DNA of 64,000 nucleotides. Source: Gordius sp. MW1 (Eukaryota; Nematomorpha; Gordioida; Gordea; Gordiidae). Under the pieces are notes generated by a model, which was given only the letters and a program-made list of their open reading frames with translations, was not told the DNA's origin and made no database searches. A program made the position numbers and the translations under genes. Of the stretch, positions 11,494 through 64,000 are shown one piece after another. The DNA lies in assembly GCA_964036665.1 (NCBI GenBank), contig OZ038528.1, positions 21,315,245 through 21,379,244 on the forward strand, written 5' to 3'. Every line of letters begins with the position of its first letter. Position 1 is the stretch's first letter.

Positions 11494-11904
11494 CTGCGTC
11501 AACTAGGAAGTAGCGGTTGTGGTCCCGTTTTTCCTTACTTAACCTTCCTGTTACCATCATCACCCAACAAATCTTCCCTCACGATTCATACCTTATCCAA
11601 CCCTAGTCCCGCGGGCCGTAAGGCGTCGTCGACTCGAAAAAGAGAAGACCCTTACAAAATTAGTTTTACGGATTTGGAGGACAAGTCTGAACGACCAACC
11701 CAAGCCGCACCAAATCGAAGTGAAGTGCAAAAAGGGCATAGCTTAGATCGAGAGGATAATAGCGATGATGCACGCGATGTGGGCAAAGCGGAGAAAAATA
11801 GCGATGCTACAGGTAAAGGGGAACTGGCAGTCGCAATTATAACGTCTGATGGCGCTAGTCCTAGGCTTAACTCTACCAGTACCGGTTACTACTATTCCTA
11901 CTTG
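11494..11904 (+). other. Open frame in phase upstream of Di-Ras start
   Basis: From the TAG at 11491-11493 to the Di-Ras ATG at 11905 the Di-Ras frame stays open for 137 codons without any ATG. The region is less AT-rich than its surroundings and its translation is polar and low-complexity (D/E/S/N-rich, for example [16 protein letters not shown]). A pyrimidine-rich tract ending CCAACCCTAG at about 11606 could be a splice acceptor. It may be 5' UTR or an N-terminal extension fed by an unseen upstream exon. Confidence 0.45.
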
Positions 11905-12691
11905 ATGCCGGAGCAAGGAAGTAATGATTATCGTGTTGTTGTATTCGGGGCGGCCGGAGTGGGAAAATCATCACTAGTCCTGAGATTCGTGAGAGGAACC
12001 TTTAGGGAATCGTACGTCCCTACGGTAGAAGACACTTATCGCCAAGTCATCACGTGCAACAAAAACGTATGTACGCTTCAAATCACAGATACCACGGGGA
12101 GTCACCAATTCCCAGCTATGCAACGCTTAAGTATATCGAAGGGACACGCTTTTGTTCTGGTTTATAGCGTCACTCGACCCGAGTCCCTGGACGAACTAGC
12201 CCATATTTACTCCTCCATAAATGAAATTAAGGGTAAATTGCCGAATATATTATTATTATTATTAGTGTTCTAACATCCTCTATCAGGATATTACATTTTA
12301 TTCGTTTTAATTGTTTATGACCCCACTCCCATTATTATATTAGCAAATGTGTGTTATTCAAGGTGCCGATGCCATGGAACACGTTCCTATTATGTTGGTG
12401 GGTAACAAAGTTGATGCCGAACCTGGTGAGAGAAGAGTGAGTTCGGAAGCGGGAGCTGCACAAGCCAAATCTTGGGGTTGTGCTTTTATGGAAACTAGCG
12501 CAAAAACAAATCATAATGTACAAGAAGTGTTCACGAGCCTCTTTCAAATGGAGAAAAGGCGAAACGTAACTTTACAAGTACAACAGTCCAAACAATCGTC
12601 TTCGGAAGACAAACGCTACAAAACTACCCTAACGAAAAAACGAGACGTTACGAATAAGTATAAAAAAAGTGGAAAGTGTATAGTTATGTGA
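11905..12691 (+). CDS. Di-Ras family small GTPase (2 exons)
   Basis: Exons 11905-12232 and 12363-12691 with a 130-bp GT-AG intron (phase 1) join to 218 residues; human DIRAS1/2 are about 200. The start is chosen because [15 protein letters not shown] is the conserved Di-Ras N-terminus. Nucleotide-binding motifs are all visible: GAAGVGKSS (P-loop), YVPTVEDTY (switch I), [12 protein letters not shown] (the Di-Ras form of G3, in place of the usual DTAGQ), NKVD (G4) and ETSAK (G5). The protein ends KSGKCIVM, a CAAX box for prenylation, preceded by a lysine-rich stretch, so membrane attachment is expected. Di-Ras proteins are Ras-like GTPases, mostly neuronal in animals, with altered switch II and low intrinsic GTPase activity. 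The linker before the CAAX is longer and Q/S/K-rich. The frame is intact. The frame is also open upstream without an ATG (see 11494-11904). Confidence 0.93.
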
Positions 12692-21119: not shown

Positions 21120-23169
21120 TTAATTGCTATGCAATTTATGGGATCACTTTCCATTTTGTTTGTCCCCCTATTCGGTGTCTTGTCTTGTTTATTCGGTTTG
21201 CATTCGGTATCTTGTTTTGTTTACTTTTAATTTTTGTTAATTTAACCAGTTTTTGGGTTCGAATCCCGGGTTTTTTTTGACTATTATGATTGTTCCTGTT
21301 ACTACCAATGTTATTATGACTTTTTGGCCGTCCGTTGAGTGCTGACCGATGGAAAAAAATGACCATTGGCCAAAATGTGAATCTAAGTTTATTTTTTCGT
21401 TTTTTTTCGACTATTATGATTGTTCCTGTTACTACCATTGCTATTATGACTTTTTGGCCGTCCGTTGGGTGCTGACCAATGAAAAAATGACCATTGGCCA
21501 AAATGTGAATCCAAGTTTATTTTTTCGTTTTTTTTCGACTATTATGATTGTTCCTGTTACTACCATTGCTATTATGACTTTTTGGCCGTCCTTTGGGTGC
21601 TGACCAATGGAAAAAAATGACCATTGGCCAAAATGTGAATCCAAGTTTATTTTTTCGTTTTTTTTCGACTATTATGATTGTTCCTGTTACTACCATTGCT
21701 ATTATGACTTTTTGGCCGTCCGTTGGGTGCTGTCCGATGGAAAAAAATGACCATTGGCCAAAATGTGAAACGAAATTATTTTTTTCGTTTTTTTTGATTC
21801 TTATGATTGTTCCTGTTACTACCGATGCTATTATGACTTTTTGGCCGTCCGTTGGCTACTGACCACTGTAAAAAAATGACCATTGGCCAAAATGTGATTC
21901 GAAAATTTTTTTTCTCCTTTTTTTCGCTAACATTGATTTATAGACCATCTGTTGGTACTGACCAATCAAAAAAAATGCCCATTGGCCAAAATGTGATTCG
22001 AAAATTTTTTTTCATTATTGTTTTGACTATTATAAATTTATATCCACTTTTAACGTGTACTGGCTGCTGACCAATGAAAAAAATGACCATTGGCCAAAAT
22101 GTGAATCCAAGTTTATTTTTTCGTTTTTTTGACTATTATGATTGTTCCTGTTACTACCATTTCTATTATGACTTTTTGGCCGTCCGTTGGGTGCTGACCA
22201 ATGGAAAAAAATGACCTTAGGTAACTTTTTATGTTTGTTATTAAGTTTTATTAATTATATTGTCTGGGTTTCTAAATTTTTAATTGATTTTATTACGTTT
22301 TTCGTTGCTTTTTCTATTTTTATTGTTCAAAATTTATAAATTTTACTCGAAATTTAAATTTTAGATAAATAGCTCTAATCCCATTTCCGAAATTTTAATA
22401 TGAAATTCCAACAATATTCTTCCATTTATAACTACTTCCCTAAAAAAATAACTTTTCAATGGAGAAAAGTAGTAGAAAAGTAGTAGCCAGGGTAATTTAC
22501 AAATTATTATAAATCACTCGAGATTAACATAGAGATCAGGCAGGATCAGGGTTATAATATAAGCTAAATATAAATAGATTCTAGAATCTATTTCCATATA
22601 AAAAGAAAGATTAAGTATTTGTTATATCTTTCTTAGTTAATCGTTCATCTATTTCAGCTAAACCTAATTTAAAAAGGCATTATACAACAACGAGATGTTG
22701 TAATAGGCTTCGGGGCTCAAAAAAAAGCTAATAGATCATTTTTGAATATACCATTTTTGAATATCTATACTATTTTATTTTTAGATATCTTATTAATTAA
22801 TCTAATTATTATTACATCTTATATTTAAAAGTCATATTTTTGAATATCTAACCCATTTTCATATATTTAAATTTTATTTTCAAATTTGCTATGCGGCATA
22901 CACCTCATAAGACATCAAGTACATTTTAGGGTCTAAATTTTTTATTAGCTTTTTTCTGATCATATTTCCTAGATACGCCTATGACAGTAAACAAAAGTAA
23001 GTTTTTAAATTCACTTGACGGCGTCGCGCATCTGTGCATCACATCACATTATCGATTAATTTATTATAAAGGGGAGAGAGGGGAGGGGAAAGGGGAGAAA
23101 CAGTAGAGCCCCTTATAATTCTAATCCTGCTTACGTCATGCAAATAAAATTGTTATTTAGCACAACGCT

Positions 23170-25129: not shown

Positions 25130-26853
25130 TTAATTGCTATGCAATTTATGGGCTCGTTTTTTGTTGTCCGTCCGTCCGTTGTCCGTCCGTCCGTTACCCT
25201 CCTATCTATTTGCATTGGGTATATTAGGTTATCGATTTTTTAAATTAATGCATGAGAAAGAGGTGCCCCACCCCTCATCTCTATCTCCCTCGCTGTGTTA
25301 TTTTTTAAATTAATGCATAAGAGGTACCCCACCCCTCATTTATATCTCCCTCGCTTTCGGGCGGGGTCGGGTTTTAATTGCTACGTTAAATTAATGCATA
25401 AGTATATCTATTCGTTTTTGAATTGGGTAACATTGATATTAATTGCTATAATTACCCTATGCCCTCCACTACAAGGGCCTATGCCTCTACTGATATGGGT
25501 CCCTGTGCCCCTACAAAAGCCTATGCCTCTATTAATGTGGGTTCCAACCCCGGCGAAGGTTCTGAATTGCTGGTTCGATTCCCGGAGAGGGCAAATTTTT
25601 TTTTTATTTTTTAAATTAAATTAATATATTTTTCCTGTTACTACCATTGATAATATGACTTTTTGGCCGTCCGCTTGTTCCATTAATGTTTCATTTTATT
25701 ATATAATAAACATAAATAAAAGTTGTTTACTTTTAATTGCTAAGCAATTTAACTAGTTTTTGGGTTAGAATCCCGGAGTTTTTTTGACTCTTATGATTGT
25801 TCTTGTTACTATCATTGATAATAAGACTTTTTGGCCGTCCGCTGGCTGCTGACCAATGAAAAAAATGACCATTGGCCAAAATGTGAATCCGAGTTTATTT
25901 TTGACTATTATGATTGTTCCTGTTACTACCATTGCTATTATGACTTTTTGGCCGTCCGCTGGCTCCTGACCGATGGAAAAAATGACCATTGGCCAAAATG
26001 TGAATCGAAATTATTTTTTTCGTTTTTTTTGACTATTATGATTGTTCCTGTTCCTACCATTGCTATTATGACTTTTTGGCCGTCCGCTGGCTGCTGACCA
26101 ATGGAATAAAATGACCATTGGCCAAAATGTGATTCGAAAACTTTTTTTTCGTTTTTTTTTGACTATTATGAATTTATATCCACTTTTACCGTGTCCTGGC
26201 TGCTGACCAATGGAAAAAAATGACCATTGGCCAAAATGTGATTCGAAAATTTTTTTTTCGTTTTTTTTTACTCTTATGAATTTATATCCACTTTTACCGT
26301 GTGCTGGCTGCTGACCAATGGAAAAAAATGACCATTGGCCAAAGTGAGCATCAAAAATTTTTTTTCCGTTTTTTTTTGGCTATCATTGACTTATAGAGTA
26401 TCTGTTGGTACTGACCAATGGAGAAAAAATGACCATTTGCCAAATTTTTGATTTTTTTAATTAAAAATTGTTCAAATTCAACAAAAATTTCTCCCAACAA
26501 TTCTGCAAATTCTTAACATTTTGATGTTTTATAATATAATGTTTGTTAGACCCATAATCACTAAAGGCCATAAAAACTAATGTAATACGCAACTAGATGC
26601 AAACACTAAATCTAACCCTAACCCTTGCCTAAATTACATTTTGCCTATAAATGGAAAATTTGTATAAATGATTAATTAATCATTAGGCATTTAATACCCC
26701 CCTATAGGCATTCTCGCCCCTTCCCACCTTTCTCGCCCATAAATTGCATAGCAAATATGACACATTTATACGAAGTACAGATGAGTCGTCCCCCCTTCCC
26801 TTCCCCTCTTCCCTTCCCTTCTCCCCCTTCCCACGAGGGCCGAAGGCCCGAGT
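25130..26853 (+). mobile_element. Helentron-associated-like element (HINE), copy 3
   Basis: Starts TTAATTGCTATGCAATTTATGGG, with a GTCCGTCCGTTGTCCGTCCG microsatellite at about 25166, a middle with GGGTTCCAACCCCGGCG and GGTTCGATTCCCGG (tRNA B-box-like words), tandem units (25780-26440), a stretch with AACCCTAACCC, the inverted subterminal repeat (about 26737-26752), pyrimidine tract and the GGGCCGAAGGCCCGAGT end. It is 1.72 kb and closely matches copy 4 along its whole length, so these two are the best guide to the element's true ends. Confidence 0.7.
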
Positions 26854-42299: not shown

Positions 42300-44941
42300 T
42301 AGAGATCTGCAACGGGCCGTTATTAGAAGGTCGGCTCGCCCATACCCGTTTTCAAAAATTCAAGGCCCGTCCGAGCCTGCCAGTAATTTCAAAACTTTAT
42401 GCCCGCCCGAGCCCGTTCGTAAGTTTTTTAGGCCCGTCCGAGCGCGTCCGTAAATTTTCAGGCTCGTTCTTACCCGTTTAGAAAAACGTCAGGCCCGCAT
42501 TTTTTTAAAGAATTCCGCGCCCGGCCCAATTAATCAAAAAATTTTCATATTTTTATTCTTGACTTATTCATAAAATACATCAATAATTATCATGTAAACA
42601 TAATAAATCAACATTATTTCCGCAGGATACACTTAAAAAATTTAAATATTACTATAAAAAATTACATGAGAATATTCCACTTTCAATAATTTTAATTGCT
42701 ATGCAATTTATGGGCTCGGGTTTTGGTTGTCCGTCGTCCGTCCGTTGTCCGTCCGTTGTCCGTTGTCTACCCTCCCTATCTATTTGCATTGGGTATATTA
42801 GGTTATCGATTTTTTAAATTAATGCATGAGAAAGAGGTGCCCCACCCCTCATCTCTATCTCCCTCGCTTTCGGGCGGGGTCGGGTTTTAATTGCTACGTT
42901 AAATCAATGCATAAGTATATCTATTCGTTTTTGAATTGGGTAACATTAATCTAATTGCTATAATTACTCTATGCCCTCCACTACAAGGGCCTATGCCTCT
43001 ACTGATATGGGTCCCTGTGCCCCTACAAAAGCCTATGCCTCTATTAATGTGGGTTCGAACCCCGGCGAACGTTCTGAATTGCTGGTTCGATTCCCGGAGA
43101 GGGCAAAATTTTTTTTTATTTTTTAAATTAAATTAATATATTTTCCTGTTACTACTATTGATAATATGACTTTTTGGCCATCCGCTTGTTCTATTATTGT
43201 TTCATTTTATTATATAATAAACATAAATAAAAGTTGTTTTAATTGCTATGCAATTTAACTAGTTTTTGGGTTAGAATCCCGGAGTTTTTTTGACTCTTAT
43301 GGTTGTTCTTATTACTATCATTGATAATAAGACTTTTTGGCCGTCCGCTGGCTGCTGACCAATGAAAAAATGACCATTGGCCAAAATGTGATTCCGAGTT
43401 TATTTTTTCGTTTTTTTTTTACTATTATGATTGTTCCTGTTACTACCATTGCTATTATGACTTTTTGGTCGTCCGCTGGCTCCTGACCGATGGGAAAAAT
43501 GACCATTGGCCAAAATGTGAATCGAAATTATTTTTTTCGTTTTTTTGACTATTATGATTGTTCCTGTTCCTACCATTGCTATTATGACTTTTTGGCCGTC
43601 CGCTGGCTGCTGACCAATGGAATAAAATGACCATTGGCCAAAATGTGATTCGAAAACTTTTTTTTCGTTTTTTTTGACTATTATGAATATATATCCACTT
43701 TTACCGTGTCCTGGCTGCTGACCAATGGAAAAAAATGACCATTGGCCAAAATGTAATTCGAAATTTTTTTTTTCGTTTTTTTTTACTTTCATGAATTTAT
43801 ATCCACTTTTACCGTGTGCTGGCTGCTGACCAATGGAAAAAAATGACCATTGGCCAAAGTGAGCATTAAAACTTTTTTTCCGTTTTTTTGGCTATCATTG
43901 ACTTATAGAGTATCTGTTGGTACTGACCAATGGAGAAAAAATGACCATTAGCCAAATTTTTGATTTTTTTAATTAAAAATTGTTCAAATTCAACAAAAAA
44001 TTTCTCCCAACAATTCTGCAAATTCACATTGTGATGTTTTATAATATAATGTTTGTTACACTAAAGGCCATAAAAACTAATGTAATACGCAACTAGATGC
44101 AAACACTAAATCTAACCCTAACCCTTGCCTATATTACATTTTGCCTATATTACATTTTGCTTATAAATGGAAAATTTGTATAAATAATTCATTAATCATT
44201 AGGCATTTAATACCCCCCTATAGGCATTCTCGCCCCTTCCCACCTTTCTCGCCAATGAATTGCATAGCAAATATGATACATTTATACGAAGTATAGATGA
44301 GTCGTCCCCCCTTCCCTTCCCCTCTTCCCACGAGGGCCGAAGGCCCGAGTTTACTTTTATTTGATTAATTTAAGTTAATACACGTAAAAAGTTAGAATTC
44401 AGTATTACCATTAAATTAAAATACTTTAATAAAATTACATGAGAATATTATATAGCTTTAATAATCAAAATTATACCATTATGATAAAATTAAGCACAGA
44501 ATTTTTGGTGCATTGTAACTTGTAACTAAGTAATTGAACTTAATTATAAAAGAATATACGAAGCTATAATCTTAAATTATGTAAACGAAAATCTATGGCA
44601 AACAGAATAGTAATGTTTTAGAGTCAAATTTAGCGCTTAAAAAAGGAATGAATGCTACAGGATATACAAAAATTAGAGGTTAAAAAAATTAAGCAATGAA
44701 TAATCTGTATATTTAAAAAAATTATAGATTTATATAATTGTCTGACTTTTAAGGTCCTTTTTAATTTCATAGCCGTTTATAAAAACGTCAGGCCCGTTCA
44801 AGCCCGTTAAAAAAATCTCAGGCCCGCCCGAGCCCGTTCCATTAATTTTTTAGCCCGTCCGGGCCCAGCTCGTTAAAATTTTTATGATACAAAGCCTGTC
44901 CGTACCCGCCCGCGGGCAGGGCCTGCCCGTGCAGATCTCTA
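42300..44941. mobile_element. hAT-like GC-ended element hosting HINE copy 4
   Basis: TAGAGATCTGCA (42300) and TGCAGATCTCTA (to 44941) are exact inverted ends. Flanking 8-mers TTTCATTC and TTTCACTA agree at six of eight positions. Beside both ends lie GGCCCGTCCGAGCCCG-type runs, inverted relative to each other. The interior is interrupted by HINE copy 4 (42692-44350). Confidence 0.75.
42692..44350 (+). mobile_element. Helentron-associated-like element (HINE), copy 4
   Basis: Starts TTAATTGCTATGCAATTTATGGG, with a GTCCGTC microsatellite (about 42728-42768), the tRNA-B-box-like GGGTTCGAACCCCGG and GGTTCGATTCCCGG, about five tandem units (43290-43950), AACCCTAACCC, and the inverted subterminal repeat (diverged to CCAATGAATTGCATAGC), pyrimidine tract and GGGCCGAAGGCCCGAGT end. 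Bordered by T on both sides, as expected for Helentron-type insertion between two Ts. Open frames within (42696-43792) are repeat shadows. Confidence 0.72.
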
Positions 44942-49500: not shown

Positions 49501-50332
49501 CGTAATTATGTGCTATGTGTCTAGGTCATATATTACCTCCTTCATTAAAATTTTTTAAATAATAACATTAAATTTGCTGCCGCTCCTTATGTAAAACATT
49601 ATAAATATATAATAACCTATAGTATAAAGCCAGCCTATTTTTAAATTTGTTCTAAAGATTTTAAATTGACATATATATGATATTCGCTGCTTATATAGAT
49701 ATGAAACATCCAGATTTATATATTAATATGTCAATTTATGATGCCATATTTCTAATTTAATTAAGTCTCGCTACTTAGTTTTTAAAAAGTATTAAGTTTT
49801 TTTCCAATAGTTTAATTTATTAACAGCTTACTAATTAGAGGACGTTACTAAAAATTCATTAATATAATAACGATAAAATATTTGTTATGGATTTTAAAAT
49901 TAAAATCAACGAAATGTAAAAAAGTAAGTTTTATATATTTTCTAGATTAAGATTATTGGAAAAAGTTATCATTTGTGTTTAAGTCTTATTTAAATACGAA
50001 ATAATTTTTTATGATAATAGAGGATACTAGTTACGTGAAGGTTATGATAAAATAATAGCCATATTTTACCGCTTATGTGCAAAAGCCACATATTTTTGTC
50101 AACTATCACTCAAAATATAATGGACATAATGGAGACCGGTGTGTCACAAATTTAAAATATAATTTTGAAACCGTAGTTTTATTTAATTGCTTTAATAACT
50201 TTGCTTAATATTTATTGTTCCCTTAAAATAATGTTATTCTAGTACCGATAATCATAGTTTATGCGTCTATTATCTATAAAATTGTAGCACTCATTTCAAG
50301 ATTATATATGCCAACTATGAGAAGAAACCATT
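46576..50332. other. AT-rich region upstream of the Sox gene
   Basis: No gene recognised over 3.7 kb. Open frames (for example 48387-48596) have no identifiable content. It could hold Sox regulatory DNA, but no specific site can be defended from one sequence. Confidence 0.45.
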
Positions 50333-51148
50333 ATGGCTATGAATAAAAGTAATGCATCCTCGCCAACACAATTAAATGATAGCAGTATGACTACATTAAA
50401 TTCCTTGAAAACGAGCCATATTAAAAGGCCCATGAACGCGTTTATGGTTTGGTCCAAAGGTCAGAGGAGAAAAATTGCTTGCGAAAATCCGAAGATGCAC
50501 AATTCGGAAATAAGTAAACGATTGGGATTGGAGTGGAAGTTGTTAACCGAAAATCATAAAAGACCCTTCATCGACGAAGCTAAAAGACTCAGGTGTTTAC
50601 ATATGAAACAGCATCCAGACTACAAATATAAACCGCGACGCAAACAAAGGGTGGATCACAACCAAAATGGTATTGATTCTGGTTCTAAAAAATTAAAAAA
50701 ATCTCCACGGCTCGAATCACGCGATTTGCATGCAAAGGATACAATCCTGGATCACTCAATTTCAAACTATGCAACTACGCTTGACCATACTTCACCCAAG
50801 TTTCTTTGGCAAACCTGCGAACGCCATCCTAATGCTAAGGATTCCCTATCAGAGTCGAAAGTTTGTGATATAACGTGTAATTTAGTTGGAGCCCACAGAG
50901 AAATATTATCTCTTTCGAGTCCATCAGCACGACAAAATCCTTTAGGATTTGACGTAGCTCTTAAGCAAAGTAACAATCAACGTCTATATTATCCCCAACA
51001 AAATTGGATTCCGCAATGGTTCTCAACTTATTCTGAGTATGCTATTTATAAAGTTTTGTCATCATTCGCTTCTTATTACAATACTAAGCCTATGTGGTAT
51101 CCTTGCAAAGGATGTCCAAATAACGTTTCATCTTGTCTTCCTCAATAA
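50333..51148 (+). CDS. SoxB-like HMG-box transcription factor (single exon)
   Basis: 271 residues, uninterrupted. The HMG box (about residues 30-108) starts [19 protein letters not shown], with the Sox signature RPMNAFMVW, then [32 protein letters not shown] and [11 protein letters not shown], closest to group B (Sox1/2/3/14/21). Sox proteins bind the minor groove at ACAAAG-type sites and bend DNA; SoxB members act in neural and stem-cell programmes. Unusual residues are two cysteines in the box (IACENP and RLRCLH, where group B usually has Q/M and A). Outside the box no group B homology domain was recognised; the C-terminus is S/N/Y-rich, with a Cys/Pro/Trp-containing end ([11 protein letters not shown]). 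Absence of introns agrees with many SoxB genes. The start is the first of two close Met codons, so a two-residue error is possible. Confidence 0.93.
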
Positions 51149-54786: not shown

Positions 54787-57700
54787 TTATTTAGTCGTAT
54801 GAGGCGAAGCCACTTGTGATGGTGCATTCGAAAAGGGAGTGGCGAGGGTATTTTTATGAGACAATTTAGGTTGGTTAGGGACCGGCATTTGAGAAATATT
54901 GTAAAATTGAATGGGAGGTCCTGACGTTTGACTCGAGTTTCCAGCATCTTTGCCATGTTGCTGCTGTTGCAAAATGCTCACTAAATTGAGATTAGCACCC
55001 TTAGTATCGCCCGAGCCTTGTTGTTGGGACGGGTTAAAGACGGGGTTAGGGAGGGTTCGGGCTTTGAGAGAATTAGCGTGCTGTTGCAGTAGGTTGTATA
55101 TGTTGGTAGAGGTTAAGTTAATACCCCCCAAACCCGTATCGTTTTGTCCCTGATGACTCAATTGTTGGTGCTGCTGCTGGGTTTGAGATTGATTGTTCAA
55201 CAAAAATTCCAGGCCGGCTATTTTGAAATTGGTAACCACGTTAGACGATGCGGTCCCCGTGCTAGTGAGGACCGGGGCGACAGTGGTCTTGTCCAACTTT
55301 TCAAACCACTTGTTCAGCGTGTTAACCTTGTTGTATATGGCGTTAGACGCGTACAAGTTTTGGTAAACTTGGGATATGGGTAAGGGTATACCCTTGCCTA
55401 TGGAACTAGATTCTAGTGTTGTGCTATCACCGACAGAAGCTGTAAGGACGTTATTGATTAGGTGATGTTGCGCGTAAGAGAGTTGATTGAAGGGAGTACC
55501 CGAGGGGTTGTTGGGTTGTTTGAGAGTGGATGAGATTTTAGTAAAGTTAGTAGAGGAGGCAGTGTTAGAGTTGAACACGGGGGGACCTGATCCCCTTTTA
55601 ATGGGTGCCCCTTCGTGAGTCATGCTAGAAAGCAGGGAATAAACAGCCCCACCACTGCCCGAGCCCCCTACCACTTTGGGAGAATTAGCGCCTAAAACGT
55701 AACTCAAGCCCGAAAAGGGGGTCTGTTGTTGCAAATTTTGCTGGTACAGTATGTTGCCGGACGCGTTAGATGGGAGTGAGACCACGGGTTTGGGTTGAAT
55801 GGAGAGTAGGGGTTGCGTCGTGGCTTGACAATAATTGGCCCGAATGAAGGAAGAATTTACACTGGAATTACTATGTTGTTGGGCGTGGTTGTTATTTGAG
55901 GGAGTGTTGACGATCGATTGCCTCTTTACGTTGCTATTACTATTATGTTCGTTTAGCTGGGCGCCCTGATTTTTAGGACATATTTTAGTGAAGGCTCCAC
56001 CGTTACCCAAAGCAATTTCGACCCCTGCCCCATTATTATTAAAGGAGGGAAAGGTGGTTTTAGTCGCTTGTTGACCTCTCAATTGCTGTACGCTTGGTTG
56101 CTGCACATTTGGCACGAATGGATAAGTGGCTTCGGGAACGATAGGGCCAGGGGCGTATAGTTGCTGGCTCAATTTGTTGCCGTTTTGTAGGCTGGCCGAA
56201 AATTCGGGAACTAAATTTTTTGCCTGCTAAATAGATGTTAAAAATGAAATAGGTATCAAACAAGATTATAATATTATTTTTAGATTAACTGGGAATATCA
56301 AAAAATTGCGAGACTGAATCAAACGAGAGCAAGAGCTAAAACGCCTTAAACCAACACTTAAAGTCTTTCTCCCTACATTCATTCAATTTAAACCCCACAT
56401 TAAGTTTAAGCCGAAGGAATAATTTGTCTTGTTACAAACACCCCAATATTTGTTAAAAGCTAAGGGGCATTAATAATAAAATACAAAATAGTTTAGCTTA
56501 GACACTTTACAAAGTATACACAAGTCAAACATATTGGCCTAAATTTAGAAAATTTAACATTCATTTTTTAAATAGCATCGGGCCAGTCCATCCGAATCAA
56601 AACCACAACGATCAGTTCAAAAACGAGCAAAAGTACCTGTAGTTGTTGATGTTTTTTCTCTCGCACCAGCCTATCTATCTTGCACTTCAACAAGCTGTAA
56701 GGGTCGACGGGGTTAGCGTAGTTAACTCCGTAATTACCAAGGGCTCGGACAGCGCTAATAGTGCTGCCATCCATTGGTGCAGTTTGAGAATTTTCGGAGG
56801 GGATTGGAGATTTGTGTCCTGCCCTGAACCTTTGGTACGTGTGCTTTGAGAGGGGACATTTGTGAGCCAGGATATTGTCGAGCCGTTCTCCGAAATACTT
56901 TTTGTAGCTGTGGTTTTTGTCTTGGACGTACATTTTGTACGTAAGCAAGGGACCCGTCTCCAGCTAAGCGTAGTTAAATTGTGATGTTAAAATTTGAAAA
57001 GAGGAATGAAGGAAATTAAAAGGAAAATTTGTCTTCATGCTATAAATTGTTATTAAAGACTGATTTTGTTTAAGTTTAGAAAAAATTGAATTAATAAAAT
57101 CTGTTATAGAGTTTTGTAAACAAATTTGGCCTTAAATATTGTTTGACCTAATAAGAAAGATAACTAGTCAAATAACACTAAAACCCTCACATATAAACTA
57201 TTTTAAAAATCAAATATCACGAATCCCTTTAAAGTAGCTCAACGAATATAGATGTTTATGCAAAATTAATGGTTTTGAGAAAAACGATAAGAAATTGTTA
57301 TTTAAATCACCTATTGCAAAAATAAAATTCAAGCAACGAACCCAGTCAAAATTAAAACTATTTTTCAAAGTCAGCAACACTAAATCTTAGGAAAAAACCA
57401 CTTCTATTATTGGCTTTGAATTATGATGTGCTGGAAAATATAAAAAATGAAAATTAAGTCATTTTTAAAAGATAACTAGCATAAGAAAAATTACACGAGT
57501 CTAACGATAAAAAAACAAGAGAGAGTGGGTGAAATTTCAGGGGAATATACTTTGTTGAGATGTTTTATCTTGGGTTTCTTGCAATTACTCATGTAATCGC
57601 GGAGGGAAAGGGTATTTTTTTCACGAGGCACAATGATATTTTCGTAATAACTTCGGCACTCCTTCGGTGATCTGTATGTGCAACCGACTGATGTCGTGTA

Positions 57701-60700
57701 TTCGGCGGCAAAATCCCAATTGGGAGTATGGCCCGGTGATAGGACTATGGTACCGAAGTAAAAGCTCTGGTAAAATTTGATGGCCTAAAGGATAAAACAA
57801 ATGTTGAGCACGTATAAATATACATTACTAATTTGTTAAGTAACTTAAACCTCCATTTTGAGTGAGTTTTATATAGTTATGCAAGAAAAATAATCAGAAC
57901 CTTAAAGGACTATCCTTTAATACTTAAGTTTAACATAGAATTTTGCAACAAATAAATAGCGTTTAGTTTACATGGCGACATACACCTTAACATAATAATT
58001 ATCAGCTGTTCGTAGTCAATTATATTTTTAGCATATTAATTAAACGCATTTTAAGATTAGTTGCCCTGGTTTGAAAAAGCTTTAAAGCGAGCGTGAATTT
58101 AATAGTAACGAAATTATTGGACAATTTTAATATTTTACTCAATACTATCATGGGATGGAAATTTTAAAAAACATAAAATTTAAATGTATACTTTATAAAA
58201 TTCGTAAAGAATGTGTTTTTTTATAAACTTGAGAGATAATTTTTATATGATTGTAGGGTCAAGAGATTATATACTATTTCAAAATGTCTGTCATGGATCT
58301 TTAGAATTAAAGAACTAGAAAATTTAAAATTTTATATTGGGAACAAACAAACCTAAGATATACAATTATAAAAAACCTTAGGGGACAAAGTCAGGACACA
58401 AGTGAAGTGGGCGAGAGGAGAAGAGGTCAGTGTGGGGGGTAGTTATGATTTTAGAGATAATCCTTCAAAAACAAATTAAGATTATATATAAAAAGTTTAA
58501 AAATTAACCATAATGCATGTGCCTTGAAGTGCTTATCAATAAGAAAATTATTTTACTCATAATTAATTAAATTTTATATTTAAAATAAATAATGTTTGAA
58601 TGTCCCTTTTTTATAAGTTGCTCTCACAAAACCTTGAAGTGAAATCTTTTATCCAACTAAAGCATCAACATGGCAAATAAACAAGCGAATATACTTTAAG
58701 ATGCAAAAAAATTTGCAGTAAAGCTTTTTCCCTTAAATAAACTTAGATTAATAATCCAATAAATTGCAATTACTAGGATAAACTTTAAATACTTTTTGCA
58801 AAGAGCAGATAGGTTAAAGTTAGACAACTCGGCAAAAGATGTATATAAAAATATTAAATAATTTTTGTAGCTTATTATAAACTCTCACATATCGTTTCTT
58901 TAGCAAAACTGTATTTGTTTCTGGACGTACATATTTTATTAAAGCATATGCCGCGTAAAACATCTGACAATTTTTTAAAGATAATTATATAATAGAAGTC
59001 ATGAAAATGTAAACAAGATAGCCCAAAAACTTCGGGTATAAAAACAAATTCAACAACGAGGTAGATTACATGGACCGGACATAGACGAGGTAGACCGCCT
59101 ACTGGCTAGTGTTGTAAAAACGGCAGGTTCTGTTTGGTCGGCCTTTGGTTTTAGTGGACTAAACATGAACTGACCAAAGATTTTTTGGTCTGTTTATGTT
59201 TAGTCGACTTAAACCACAGTTCGACCAAACATAACCCAATCGTTTTTACATTACTAATATTGGCTTTTAAATAACAAACAATTACAGATTTTAATTAGGG
59301 TAACCCCCCCACCCTCCCTCAAATTTTGGCTGCCAGACTAATAAAACCCAGGGACATTTCTAATGGACGTGGCCAGCATTGGAATTAGGGAGGGGGAGGG
59401 GGGGCAATAATGATTTAGGGAGGGGCAAAATAAACATTTTTCGAAATTTTAGCCATAATTTTAATAAATTTTAACAAATTTTTAGATTTATAGGGGGCAG
59501 CCGCCCCTCCCTGCCCCCCTTCCTTGGCTACGCACATGTGATTTCTAATTGTTTATAAACCAGTCAAAAAAACCTTGATAAGGGCCCAGGCTTCGGTAAT
59601 GATCCATTTGTGGGGTAAGTTAATGTCCGTAATTTTGGGTGAACCTAGGGGATTTATTTTGAAAGCATTTTTGGCTTTGTTCAGGAGTTGAGATTGGAAA
59701 TGAGCTTGACTAGGGTAGAGAGGGCCTTGGCGTTCGATTTCGAATCTTAGATAATTGCTAACTTCTTTCCTCAACTTAACCAAAATGGGTGATGGTTTGT
59801 CGAAGAGAGATTTGGGCTGCTGACACGAAGAGTTATTAAATTCTTCGTAGTCCATCTCTTCTTGAAAAGTTAGATCATCTGGTTTGGGGTTAAATAGCAA
59901 AGTGTTTATAGTACAATTGCAATTTTATACAAAATCAACATAAAACAAGTACGAATGAGAATTTATAAGTTAAATTTCATATTTAATATCATAAATAGAT
60001 ATAAAGGTACAAATCAAAACATAAAGTAAACAAATAAATGCTATGAGTTATATAAATTTCATTGACTTATACAACATTATAATATATCCACTAAATGAGT
60101 TAAATATTATATTAATGATTGTTTAAAAAATATTCAGTCCTGTGAAATAAAACTATTCGATAATGTAATGCAAAGCTCAAGTGTGGTTAGAATAGAATGT
60201 TGTTGCCATTATATTTTGGCTATAAAAGGAGTCAAACAGATAAAACTTTAAATCTGCTAGAAGTTAATATTATTTAAGCATACCTTAATTAATGATCCCA
60301 TTCCTAAAGTATCTACCCCCAAAATGTAATCTTTAAACATACCCTGGCAATGCCAATTTTGCAGAGCTCGTTTGCTGATCAAATTAGGGGCATCTAAGTT
60401 AGCGTTAACTGCTTCAAGTAGATCTTCATCGGATAATATTATCGAGGAATACACTTGATTGATTGAATCTTTATCCTCTTGCAGGTAGCGTTTTGGTGTC
60501 TCTTGAGATATCTTTATCAATAGTTCATATACACTTAAATTTACTCAAAAAATTACATTTTATCTACTAATAAACGGAAAATCACTATTATGCATAAGTA
60601 ACATTTCAAAAAAAAGGAATAAATTTAACAAAGTTCTGATGTTGTAATAAAATTTATGATCTACACAGGTGGATTTGAAAGTGCATTTCATTGGTTTTAT

Positions 60701-62683
60701 GAATATGAAAAAGCATGTCGTCTGTATTGATTTAGAATATTTTAATCATTTTAAGATTTAAAAAGTATGTATTTGAATTTAATCCAAAAGAGGTAAAATT
60801 ATGTAAATATAAAGTTACCAATTTTTCAACCTCATCACGAGTCGCAAGGATCGTCATGCTTGGAAGAACTATGTCAAGTAGTATCTAGCAAATCACAAAA
60901 AATTGTTAGTTGCAATTATTTATTTTGCATTTCATAAAATTTGACAAATTATGAAATGTTGAAAACCTGCTGGTCATCCATATCATCCAAATTTATGAAC
61001 TCTTTCATTAACTTTATCCCGTAATTGATTATAGGTAGTTTCTGTAGGTATAAAATTATAAACTATACAATAAATTACTTTGGCCACAATCTTGTCTTCA
61101 GGGGCCACTTTTTCCTCTTTTTGACATACCTATTGATAAAATAAAAAAATTGTGTTCCAAATTCAGTAAACCCTTAATCAAAAATGTTTTTGACCATCAA
61201 TAATCATAGAGAATTTTAATACAAATAATTTGGGTAATTTGTAAAGTAGATAAGATTTTGTATGCTTTTTGCCTAAGATACTTTTGAGTAATAATCATAT
61301 TTAATAAAATTTAAGTTTTAATTTCCCTTAAAACAATATCTTAATCAATGTTGAAAGCCACATTTAAAATATATTATATATTGGGTAAAAATTAAAAATG
61401 CAATAATAAAATTATACTTTGTAAAATATTTTATTTAAAATAAATTTAATTTTTATAAGAACAATATTAAACAAATAGCATATATGGTAGATATAATTTT
61501 TAAAAAACTCATATAAAATATATCAACAACCAAATTTTGATGTGTACGGTTTAAATGAGAAATACATTGATAGAAGTTACCATTTTAATAACAGAATTCC
61601 AAAATTTTCTAACAAGATCAGCAATATTGCATGAAACTTTAATAGCACCTTTGTTATTTATACCTGAGGAGGATGTTGCTAGTTTTTTGTATTTTGAAGT
61701 TTGATTTATGATCTAAAGTATGTAATCAATCAAAATAAAATTATCATAAATAGCATCTGTAGACATTTCATTTAAACCAAATTGTGTTATAGTTTAATAT
61801 AGTTTTAAAAAATTAACCCCTATGATATCGTTCTTAAAAATAGTTAAATTGAACACACAATTTTAAAACACCAAACAAACAATTTCTGATTTCATTAATA
61901 CTTTAAAATCATGTCATGATAAATATTTTTCTTACTTTAAAGGCCAAAGCTGTTTTCCATTTACGTTCTTGATTAAAATCATATGACATCCATTTGATTT
62001 CGTGCAAAAAATAATCATGTATATATAGGGGATGAGGATATTCAATAACTTTAGGTAGCATACTCGCTGGCCACATACCACATTTCCTCAGTGAGTTTAT
62101 TTTATTGTAAATATCGCAGTCTTGCTGTTTAAATACACATATAAATAATAAATTAACTATCAAGTAAACTTTTTAAAAGCCTATTAAAAATAATAATGCC
62201 CTATGTCAATAATATAATACCAACCATATTGTCTTGGTCATTTTCTAAATTTGAATTATCAATGGGATCAGAATAAGCAACAAATTCATCATGGGTTTTT
62301 AGTCGCTTAACATTATGACTTTCAATATTTTCCTCATAATTTTTAGTTTGATAGTTAATATTACAATTCTCATAAAACTCTTCCTTTAATTCTTCCCTTT
62401 TTATCTTGATAGAGCCTTCCATATATGGAGGCTTAGGTTTTGGTGATTTAAGAATCGACATAGCATCATTGGAAAGGCCCACATGTAATTTTTCTTTAAA
62501 AAAGGTATCAATAAAATTTTGTAAGTCAATAGGAGGTTTTTTCTTCCATATTAAAAGGTCAGTAATAGAATGTCGTGTCATAAGACAATAACTTTCTGTA
62601 AGGTATTCAATAAGCGTTTCTCGTGATATATGCAAAGAAACAATCTTTTTTTCTAACAAAGTTTTTCTTAAAGTTGAACTCAT
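54787..62683 (-). CDS. EP400/Domino-related HSA-SANT protein lacking SNF2 ATPase (Eaf1-like)
   Basis: Exons (minus): 62225-62683, 61936-62124, 61581-61712, 61079-61129, 60967-61041, 60819-60884, 60284-60511, 59574-59855, 57551-57784, 56637-56963, 54787-56226; about 1,160 residues, GT-AG introns all falling between codons, one only 37 bp (61042-61078). Start: first ATG of exon 1. Residues ~164-235 are an HSA domain (LRKCGMWPASMLPK, HDYFLHEIKWMSYDF, QERKWKTA, then NIADLVRKFWNSVIKM). After about 250 residues comes SLFDKPSPILVKLRKE, then the SANT/Myb domain split between exons 8 and 9 (TEAWALIK | AIKFYQS..., SPGHTPNWDF, RSPKECRSYYENIIVPRE), then an EP400-type post-SANT region (YVQDKNHSYKKYF, LGNYGVNYANPVDP, KIDRLVREKK) and a ~480-residue Q/N/S-rich tail. 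In EP400/Domino an SNF2 ATPase lies between HSA and SANT; here it is absent. The layout is that of Eaf1/Vid21, the NuA4 acetyltransferase scaffold. The exon 8 acceptor is uncertain. Confidence 0.87.
59107..59257. mobile_element. hAT-type MITE in an intron of the EP400-like gene
   Basis: Starts TAGTGTTGTAAAAACGG and ends CGTTTTTACATTACTA. Flanking 8-mers CTACTGGC and ATATTGGC agree at six positions. Inside are TTTGGTCGGCCTTTGG and GGTCTGTTTATGTTTAGTCG, arranged as nested inverted repeats. Same family as 24608-24691 but longer and older. It lies in the 1.8-kb intron that splits the SANT domain. Confidence 0.8.
59290..59540. mobile_element. MITE relic, TGGCTACGC family
   Basis: Contains GCATTGGAATTAGGGAGGGG, TTTTAGCCATAATTTTAATA, GGGGGCAGCCGCCCCTCCC and TTGGCTACGCACATG. 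Relatives are at 4450, 7560 and 23170. It is in the same intron, 33 bp from exon 8. Confidence 0.6.
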
Positions 62684-64000
62684 TTTATGATCCAAAAAAA
62701 CAGATGGTATAACAAAAGAAAATCCAGTTAGCTACTAATGCGATTACAAAAAAAAAGTAAGTCGAAAAATAATATTATTAAAATTGTGGGCTCAAGCTTC
62801 TAACACCTATTAAAAATTGGCCAATAATATTCGACGTTCTGACTGTATTGTTTGGACCAATCAGTATGCGATCCCGCATTAATTTTGGAAACGCTTCCAA
62901 AAGATGTACACATACAAAAATAAGTAACATAAAAACTTATATATTATTAAAAAAATAAACAATTTTATGTTAAGTGTTAAGCAAGTATATTGATTGTTGT
63001 TATCAAAGATTACTTACGATTATTACGGAATTTAAAAATAATTTTATTCCGAAAGCATGCATTCTAAATCTGATTTCTATATGTAACGGAATGAAACAAT
63101 AACGCGAAAAGGGAAAAATAACGCATGCAAAATGCAAAACCTTAAAGTACTAATGCGTATCTTTCTCGAGGGAACAGATAGATTCTCTACTCCAAATAAT
63201 GCTAGAGTGATAAATGCGTAATGTGAGTTAATCCCCATCTGGTTTTTGTTTTATCGTAATTAGATGTTATCAAACTCGTTAACTTTCGTAAATACACAAT
63301 TTAATGTTAAATAAGTGGTGTACAACAACGATTGTAAGGGTAAAGGAAAGTAATGTTTACCAGAGGAGGATATAGTGTAATAATTATTGCAAGGGGAGAG
63401 GAGACCGTTATAATGATTGTCAAAGAAGGGGGGAGGATGAAAGACAAACGTATATAATCCACGGCAGAAATAAAAAATTTCAATCAGTTGTTTTTTGACA
63501 TCAAAATAATGAGCTCATTTAAATGACAAAAACAAATATCTTTTGGAGAAGGTAATAACGTTGTTGACAGAGTGGCCCGAGACGAGCCTTGGCCCTATCC
63601 CAAGGACAAAATCATACACCCTTAAATCCCTCAAACGCTAGTTTCAGAGTCAATCCTGTTGGAGCTCCGTTAAATTTAAATTTTCAGTTTCAATTTAAGC
63701 TATTAATTTCCCAAATATATAACTTAAAGTTAATAAAAAGCTGGATATATATGATATTATACTGGTCTCTAATTTTGAGACGACAATTAAATAGAGTACT
63801 TATAACTAGCATCAAGGAGAATTTGTACGATTTTTTTGTTTTGTTTTAAAATGGATTTGCAGATAATATCATTTATCATCAAGGTATGTTTATAATTGTT
63901 TAATAGATAGCATAAAGAGTTTTAATTATCATTTTAGATTCATTCGCGGATTCGTACAGAGCTTATAATATTCTGTATAATTTGTAATATTTTTATTTAT
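62684..64000. other. Upstream region of the EP400-like gene
   Basis: Probable promoter/5' UTR side of the minus-strand gene, but no core element can be defended. The open frame at 63589-63849 (+) is A/T-driven with no recognisable domain and is not called a gene. Confidence 0.4.

Follow-up and report, generated by a model that had tools for sequence, protein, structure and literature searches.

Gene structure and conserved domains

We analysed a stretch of 64,000 nucleotides from the hairworm Gordius sp. MW1 (contig OZ038528.1, positions 21,315,245 to 21,379,244, forward strand), called the window here and numbered from its first letter; the assembly comprises 211.8 Mb in 12 contigs, and the contig that holds the window is referred to as C2. 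The minus strand of the window carries, from 62683 to 54787, an EP400-like gene (the C2 gene) that, on our splice model, lacks the whole SNF2 motor and its insertion. An earlier note on this DNA had described it as a relative of animal EP400/Domino without the ATPase. After splicing, the gene has 11 exons and encodes 1148 amino acids in a frame that is open over 1148 codons. Its exons are as follows.

Exon 1, 62225..62683, minus strand: residues 1-153; ATG and the EP400/Domino N-terminal motif (N-motif, residues 2-57)
Exon 2, 61936..62124, minus strand: residues 154-216; pre-HSA and start of HSA; Pfam HSA 32.4 bits
Exon 3, 61581..61712, minus strand: residues 217-260; end of HSA (KFWNSVIK); profile score 48.3 half-bits, P 0.0004 (5000 shuffles)
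Exon 4, 61079..61129, minus strand: residues 261-277; linker; open, GC 0.43, GT-AG, phase 0; without significant similarity
Exon 5, 60967..61041, minus strand: residues 278-302; linker; open, GC 0.32, phase 0; without significant similarity
Exon 6, 60819..60884, minus strand: residues 303-324; linker; open, GC 0.41, phase 0
Exon 7, 60343..60511, minus strand: residues 325-380; linker; open, GC 0.40, phase 1 at its end; donor CAGG/GTATGT; not significant alone
Exon 8, 59574..59878, minus strand: residues 381-482; PKSLFDKPSP motif and start of SANT (WIITEAWALIK); human EP400 match
Exon 9, 57551..57784, minus strand: residues 483-560; main part of SANT (SPGHTPNWD...); human EP400 E 8e-12 for the exon alone
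Exon 10, 56637..56963, minus strand: residues 561-669; hydrophobic domain HD (GVNYANPVDP)
Exon 11, 54787..56226, minus strand: residues 670-1148 and stop; N/Q/S-rich tail

The ten introns (100, 223, 451, 37, 82, 307, 464, 1789, 587 and 410 bp) are all of the GT-AG type with consistent phases. GC content was 0.27-0.48 in the exons versus 0.19-0.31 in the introns, stop codons were present in 29 of the 30 intron frames, and codon usage ranked the coding frame best of three in all exons except 2, 3 and 6. The donor of exon 1 is weak (GTTGGT), and further 5' exons upstream are possible. The HSA exons (62124-61936 and 61712-61581) and one SANT exon (57784-57551) lie exactly where the earlier note had placed them, but the other SANT exon (59878-59574) proved to be 23 bases longer; similarly, its intron sizes of 451, 37, 82 and 307 bp were recovered, whereas the intron before exon 8 measures 464 bp and not 428. 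The reading frame continues for 19 codons past the exon 7 donor (60282-60342) to a second good donor (AAG/GTATGC), where an alternative in-phase splice is possible.

The encoded protein was scored against a profile of 16 proteins (Domino, SRCAP and SSL-1), with levels set at the 99.5th percentile of 200 shuffles. The N-motif (89 half-bits versus a shuffle level of 46), HSA (185 versus 46), the SLFDRPSP motif (77 versus 40), SANT (238 versus 47) and HD (58 versus 43) all exceeded these levels. Taken separately, the N-motif of exon 1 gave 88.6 half-bits against a maximum of 49 among 5000 shuffles; when the tick N-motif was used as a genome query, its single match was exon 1 of the C2 gene, and this match was weak (E 0.067, 27% identity). 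HSA was the sole Pfam domain above its cut-off (23 bits) in residues 1-670, and the HSA region in exon 2 was 35-46% identical to relatives by tblastn. A search of solved structures with residues 1-670 returned human EP400 as the best match (E 5.3e-35) and SRCAP at E 1.8e-13; the EP400 structure matched in two stretches, pre-HSA/HSA and SLFDRPSP-SANT-HD, and SRCAP matched around HSA. The proposal that HSA and SANT are specifically EP400-like was borne out by the EP400 structure matches and the profile scores. The tail is rich in Q (10.6%), N (11.5%) and S (12.3%), versus 4.2, 6.7 and 7.8% in residues 1-669.

Absence of the SNF2 motor

In the same profile scoring, lobe 1 (39 half-bits versus 53) and lobe 2 (32 versus 50) of the motor stayed below their shuffle levels. 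A six-frame ungapped scan of window positions 56001-63500 with the motor columns reached a maximum of 36 half-bits, versus a mean maximum of 41 over 30 shuffles, and the positive controls, a motor gene on contig C8 described below and the BRM locus, gave 426 and 162 half-bits, respectively. When 14 full-length relatives were compared by tblastn with the window plus 5 kb upstream, 43 matches were obtained at E up to 1; the 40 that were listed all fell on the exons of the N-motif, HSA, SLFDRPSP/SANT or HD, and none on a motor. Genome-wide, 51 SNF2-domain matches were found, none of them on contig C2. The earlier claim that the ATPase is missing between HSA and SANT therefore holds, since the motor scan stayed within the shuffles, both lobes were below level and the controls were detected.

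A partner gene on contig C8

HSA was found at three sites in the genome: on contig C7 beside a BRM-like motor, on contig C8 and in the C2 gene. The C8 gene (approximately 26.244-26.261 Mb, minus strand) contains HSA, the post-HSA NAIVGETEKYSD motif, both lobes and an LKPIEKMALRI motif, and stops after a short basic tail. Nine of the 11 tblastn pieces were 61-88% identical to tick Domino, and the remaining two reached 57 and 36%. The 9 kb that follow yielded no SANT (two queries, E up to 0.01). The three best of the 24 genome matches to Domino lobe 1 belong to this gene; the next best, with 46% identity, is CHD4-like as judged by eye. A separate Swr1/Domino-type motor gene with its own HSA, for which the earlier note had proposed a genome search, was thus found in one clear case, and by these comparisons the C8 gene appears to be the one clearly Swr1/Domino-type motor of the genome. 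The usual pre-HSA stretch (LRKxGLW..RLPKV) was not seen before its HSA exon; the C2 gene keeps this stretch.

The Domino SANT-part query gave only two genome matches, both inside the C2 gene. The second intact EP400 that, according to the earlier note, would make the C2 copy a pseudogene did not turn up: the search of the assembly yielded only the one EP400-type SANT. The C2 and C8 genes share a phase 0 intron at an identical position in HSA (after TVARK and LAFK, respectively), and their second HSA introns lie one residue apart (after SISR and VIKM). Duplicated genes would be expected to show this, but introns of this kind could also predate the duplication.

Linker exons and alternative explanations for the missing motor

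Exons 6 and 7 together contain EVEKLISQETP-KRY, which resembles the post-motor ELDKLMKQLSPIERY; the resemblance is weak (P 0.013 against that region, 0.068 against the whole profile). If it is real, the loss joined the HSA side directly to the post-motor side. Exon 5 as a post-HSA motif (P 0.80; exons 4-5, P 0.55) and the Walker-A-like look, by eye, of the read-through after the exon 7 donor (lobe 1 region, P 0.28-0.43) were rejected.

Three other explanations would change what the gap between HSA and SANT means. Exons 4-7 might be a shrunken remnant of the motor rather than a new linker, as a global MAFFT alignment, which spreads their pieces along the motor in order, would allow. For exon 7 with its read-through, comparison with the whole profile gave P 0.014, though the match fell at an insertion position (tick 1687) and not on a motor motif; the linker fell under the shuffle levels for both lobes, and we set this explanation aside as improbable because six tests against the motor regions alone gave P 0.17-0.51. 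That the C2 gene is instead a decaying EP400 pseudogene seems to us slightly less probable still. Its divergence is high, with HSA at the identities given above, and in 3 of 11 exons codon usage did not favour the coding frame; however, 1148 codons are open and ten splice pairs intact, and the gene holds the sole EP400-type SANT found in the assembly. An assembly artefact, in which an ordinary EP400 would have lost its motor exons from the interval between exons 3 and 8, has the slightest chance of the three. Only a single assembly underlies the analysis, but a collapse is argued against because four small in-frame exons, with fitting phases and GC above that of the introns, occupy the interval; moreover, no second Swr1-type motor was found elsewhere in the genome, and the motor on C8 comes with an HSA of its own.

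Origin of the C2/C8 pair

EP400/Domino is interpreted as a merged form of the NuA4 and SWR1 scaffolds. Nematodes and Nematomorpha are sister phyla. In our profile scoring, the eight segments were all present and in order, with motor and SANT fused, in 11 of 13 full-length relatives; these scores are inflated because all 13 proteins sit in the profile. Trichinella SSL-1, whose record is marked partial, is missing only the N-motif; its motor is followed by the post-motor domain and SANT in the usual order. In bat SRCAP, the N-motif, post-motor domain and SLFDRPSP are lacking, and its SANT and HD scores (84 and 73 half-bits) are to be read with the reservation that its own row helped to build those columns and that the shuffle levels were determined for a length of 690 residues. 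Since arthropods, one nematode, a tunicate and a mussel all show the fused state, it is simplest to assume that hairworms descend from an ancestor with a fused gene, and the loss of the motor from the C2 gene is most likely secondary rather than primitive, as judged from these architectures. The earlier note had proposed a secondary fission, loss of the ATPase or a dedicated NuA4 paralogue; our results agree with it and refine it, in that the parts of the C2 gene are of the EP400/Domino type and their state is most likely secondary; fission, loss or duplication with reciprocal loss may have been the route.

In the HSA tree, the C2 gene stood beside the tunicate (90/38), and the hairworm branches were 3.7 and 3.65 long. 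In the motor tree, the C8 gene grouped with the tunicate, bat SRCAP and the mussel (fork of four at 95/99; with the tunicate, 85/80) and not with the nematode. Constraining C8 with SRCAP was 4.3 log units worse (p-AU 0.157) and with SSL-1 5.5 worse (p-AU 0.126), so that neither was rejected. The phylogeny suggested in the earlier note was thus obtained for HSA and motor, but it did not resolve the placement of the pair, and neither tree dated the duplication; the pair may have arisen recently or may date back as far as EP400/SRCAP.

We give somewhat better than even odds to the view that hairworms re-split the fused animal Domino, by duplication and reciprocal loss, into an Eaf1-type scaffold without motor and a Swr1-type motor without SANT. 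It is also conceivable, though on balance unlikely, that the two genes descend from the EP400/SRCAP duplication, that both were kept in hairworms and that the motor later disappeared from the EP400 copy; this would lead to the same outcome, with an old duplication and one copy lost in arthropods and nematodes. The company that C8 keeps in the motor tree and the position of the C2 gene beside the same tunicate in the HSA tree would fit such an old pair, but the HSA branches are very long, the SRCAP constraint was worse by a margin that, like that of SSL-1, did not reach rejection, and a study of flies (excerpts of PMC7239659) gives one SWR1-type gene in these insects.

Proposed function and complex partners

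In the human TIP60 complex, as described in excerpts of PMC11995519, the N-terminus of EP400 lies in the TINTIN module and pre-HSA/HSA in the ARP module, the motor and insertion belong to a base with RUVBL1/2, VPS72 and H2A.Z, TRRAP is held by SANT and HD, and the post-motor domain folds back onto the ARP module. In human, this domain and HSA together anchor the acetyltransferase module, and the pre-HSA residues R807, K809 and H811 contact DMAP1 and the post-motor domain. The C2 protein keeps the N-motif, HSA, SANT and HD, and the base-forming parts are missing. We consider it probable, at about 0.72, that the C2 gene derives, in hairworms, from animal EP400/Domino, is without motor and insertion, has kept the scaffold parts and acts like Eaf1 in NuA4/TIP60 beside the Swr1-like C8 gene.

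We infer the expression, complex membership, function and route of origin of the C2 gene from sequence. Its HSA would carry the actin/ARP4/DMAP1 module, SANT and HD would hold TRRAP, and the N-terminus would hold the TINTIN module, the N-motif being, as we infer, the part that binds it. The protein would thus build a NuA4/TIP60 acetyltransferase complex without a remodelling motor of its own, most likely as yeast Eaf1 does, and H2A.Z exchange would fall to the separate Swr1/DOM-B-type C8 gene, so that the roles of DOM-A and DOM-B, which flies obtain from one spliced gene, would be spread over two hairworm genes. At the human SANT contacts, H2397 is kept and D2406 is replaced by E; of the six HD contacts with TRRAP, three are identical, two have V for I or L and one has Y for I, H2464 and K2469 not being mapped. 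Genome-wide family matches comprised one region each for TRRAP (on contig C2), YL1 and Eaf7, two for EPL1, five for MOZ_SAS and four above cut-off for zf-HIT. The sole Eaf7/MRGBP match (C2:21242465-21242695) lies approximately 73 kb below the start of the window, with TRRAP on the same contig.

Several observations weigh against this reading, those on the post-motor domain and the pre-HSA contacts in particular against equating the protein simply with Eaf1. The approximately 120 residues encoded by exons 4-7 showed no clear match to anything. The post-motor domain scored 39 half-bits, under its shuffle level of 50; a diverged form is possible, and the acetyltransferase tether would have to be held otherwise or have diverged. 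At the positions of human R807, K809 and H811, the C2 protein has H, L and I, and R2413, a further SANT contact, is changed to C. Finally, within the MOZ_SAS, EPL1 and zf-HIT family matches, TIP60, EPC1 and ZNHIT1 were not separated from their paralogues.

Other features of the window and the mitochondrial contig

Three further genes or domains were recognised in the window.

11494-12691: Ras-family GTPase, DiRas-like by eye
50321-51148: Sox-type HMG box, 91 bits
51921-52337: weak KH domain, below cut-off

A dispersed repeat occupies 21136-21855, 26011-26379 and 43400-43891, with the minus-strand frames HFGQWSFFSIGQQPADGQKVI and variants, and Rfam gave no match on the window.

Contig C12 (14,798 bases) is mitochondrial. 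Its COX1 is 95% identical to that of Gordius sp. VVA-2019, 88% to that of Gordionus alpestris and 81% to those of two further hairworms; the other 116 matches listed, of 7999 scored, were 65-70% identical. This places the animal among the gordiid hairworms, phylum Nematomorpha. The gene (C12:4109-5446) contains a single AGG codon, at a position that is the Lys of HKDIG in three of four other hairworms and is given as Ser in Gordius sp.; AGG may read as Lys in this line. Of 24 COX1 matches in the genome, 23 lie on nuclear contigs, and one of these (C8 2829490-2830827) matches the profile over its full length and has the same seven TGA codons. Copies of mitochondrial DNA thus seem to be common in the nuclear genome.

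Comparison with known systems

Limited literature searches, covering titles and the beginnings of abstracts, found no report of a motorless EP400 in an animal and none joining Nematomorpha with EP400. A search for motorless relatives gave 9 matches among 7989 scored candidates; the four that were read and scored had no HSA signal, and the other five are known from the table only. In another relative search, an SNF2 domain was listed for all 23 matches.

Excerpts of PMC4358907 distinguish three architectures of HSA, ATPase and SANT across eukaryotes, with a single HSA-SANT gene each in yeast (Eaf1) and human (the motor-bearing p400). The C2 protein resembles EP400 and DOM-A in having the N-motif, HSA, SLFDRPSP, SANT, HD and a Q-rich tail in the same order; it differs in being without motor and insertion and in that the post-motor domain was undetected. 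Like yeast Eaf1 and plant AtEAF1 (PMC4358907, in part), it has HSA and SANT without an ATPase between them and a separate Swr1-type gene; plants, however, pair Eaf1 with a fused PIE1, unlike the hairworm pair. The solved-structure search up to E 10 listed EP400 and SRCAP but no Eaf1, the Eaf1 sequence itself not being among those compared; with that proviso, EP400 as the nearest solved structure and the EP400 N-motif point away from descent from fungal or plant Eaf1.

The C8 gene matches Swr1, SRCAP and DOM-B in its HSA, both lobes, LKPIEKMALRI motif and short tail and in that no SANT was found, but it is a separate gene rather than a splice form, and the usual pre-HSA stretch was unseen. Flies produce DOM-A and DOM-B as splice forms of a single gene, and two C-terminal isoforms are also listed for four other insects and one spider (excerpts of PMC7239659). 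The same excerpts report that the DOM-A ATPase is dispensable for H4K12 acetylation in flies and cite a yeast experiment in which the Domino ATPase inserted in Eaf1 was harmless. An animal from which evolution has removed the motor would be a natural test of its role in the acetyltransferase complex, and surveys based on helicase domains can miss such EP400 relatives. If our reading is correct, it suggests that Eaf1 itself may come from loss of the motor in a fused ancestor, and hairworms would have arrived at this division of labour by a third route, the other two being splicing in flies and the motor-bearing paralogue pair of vertebrates.

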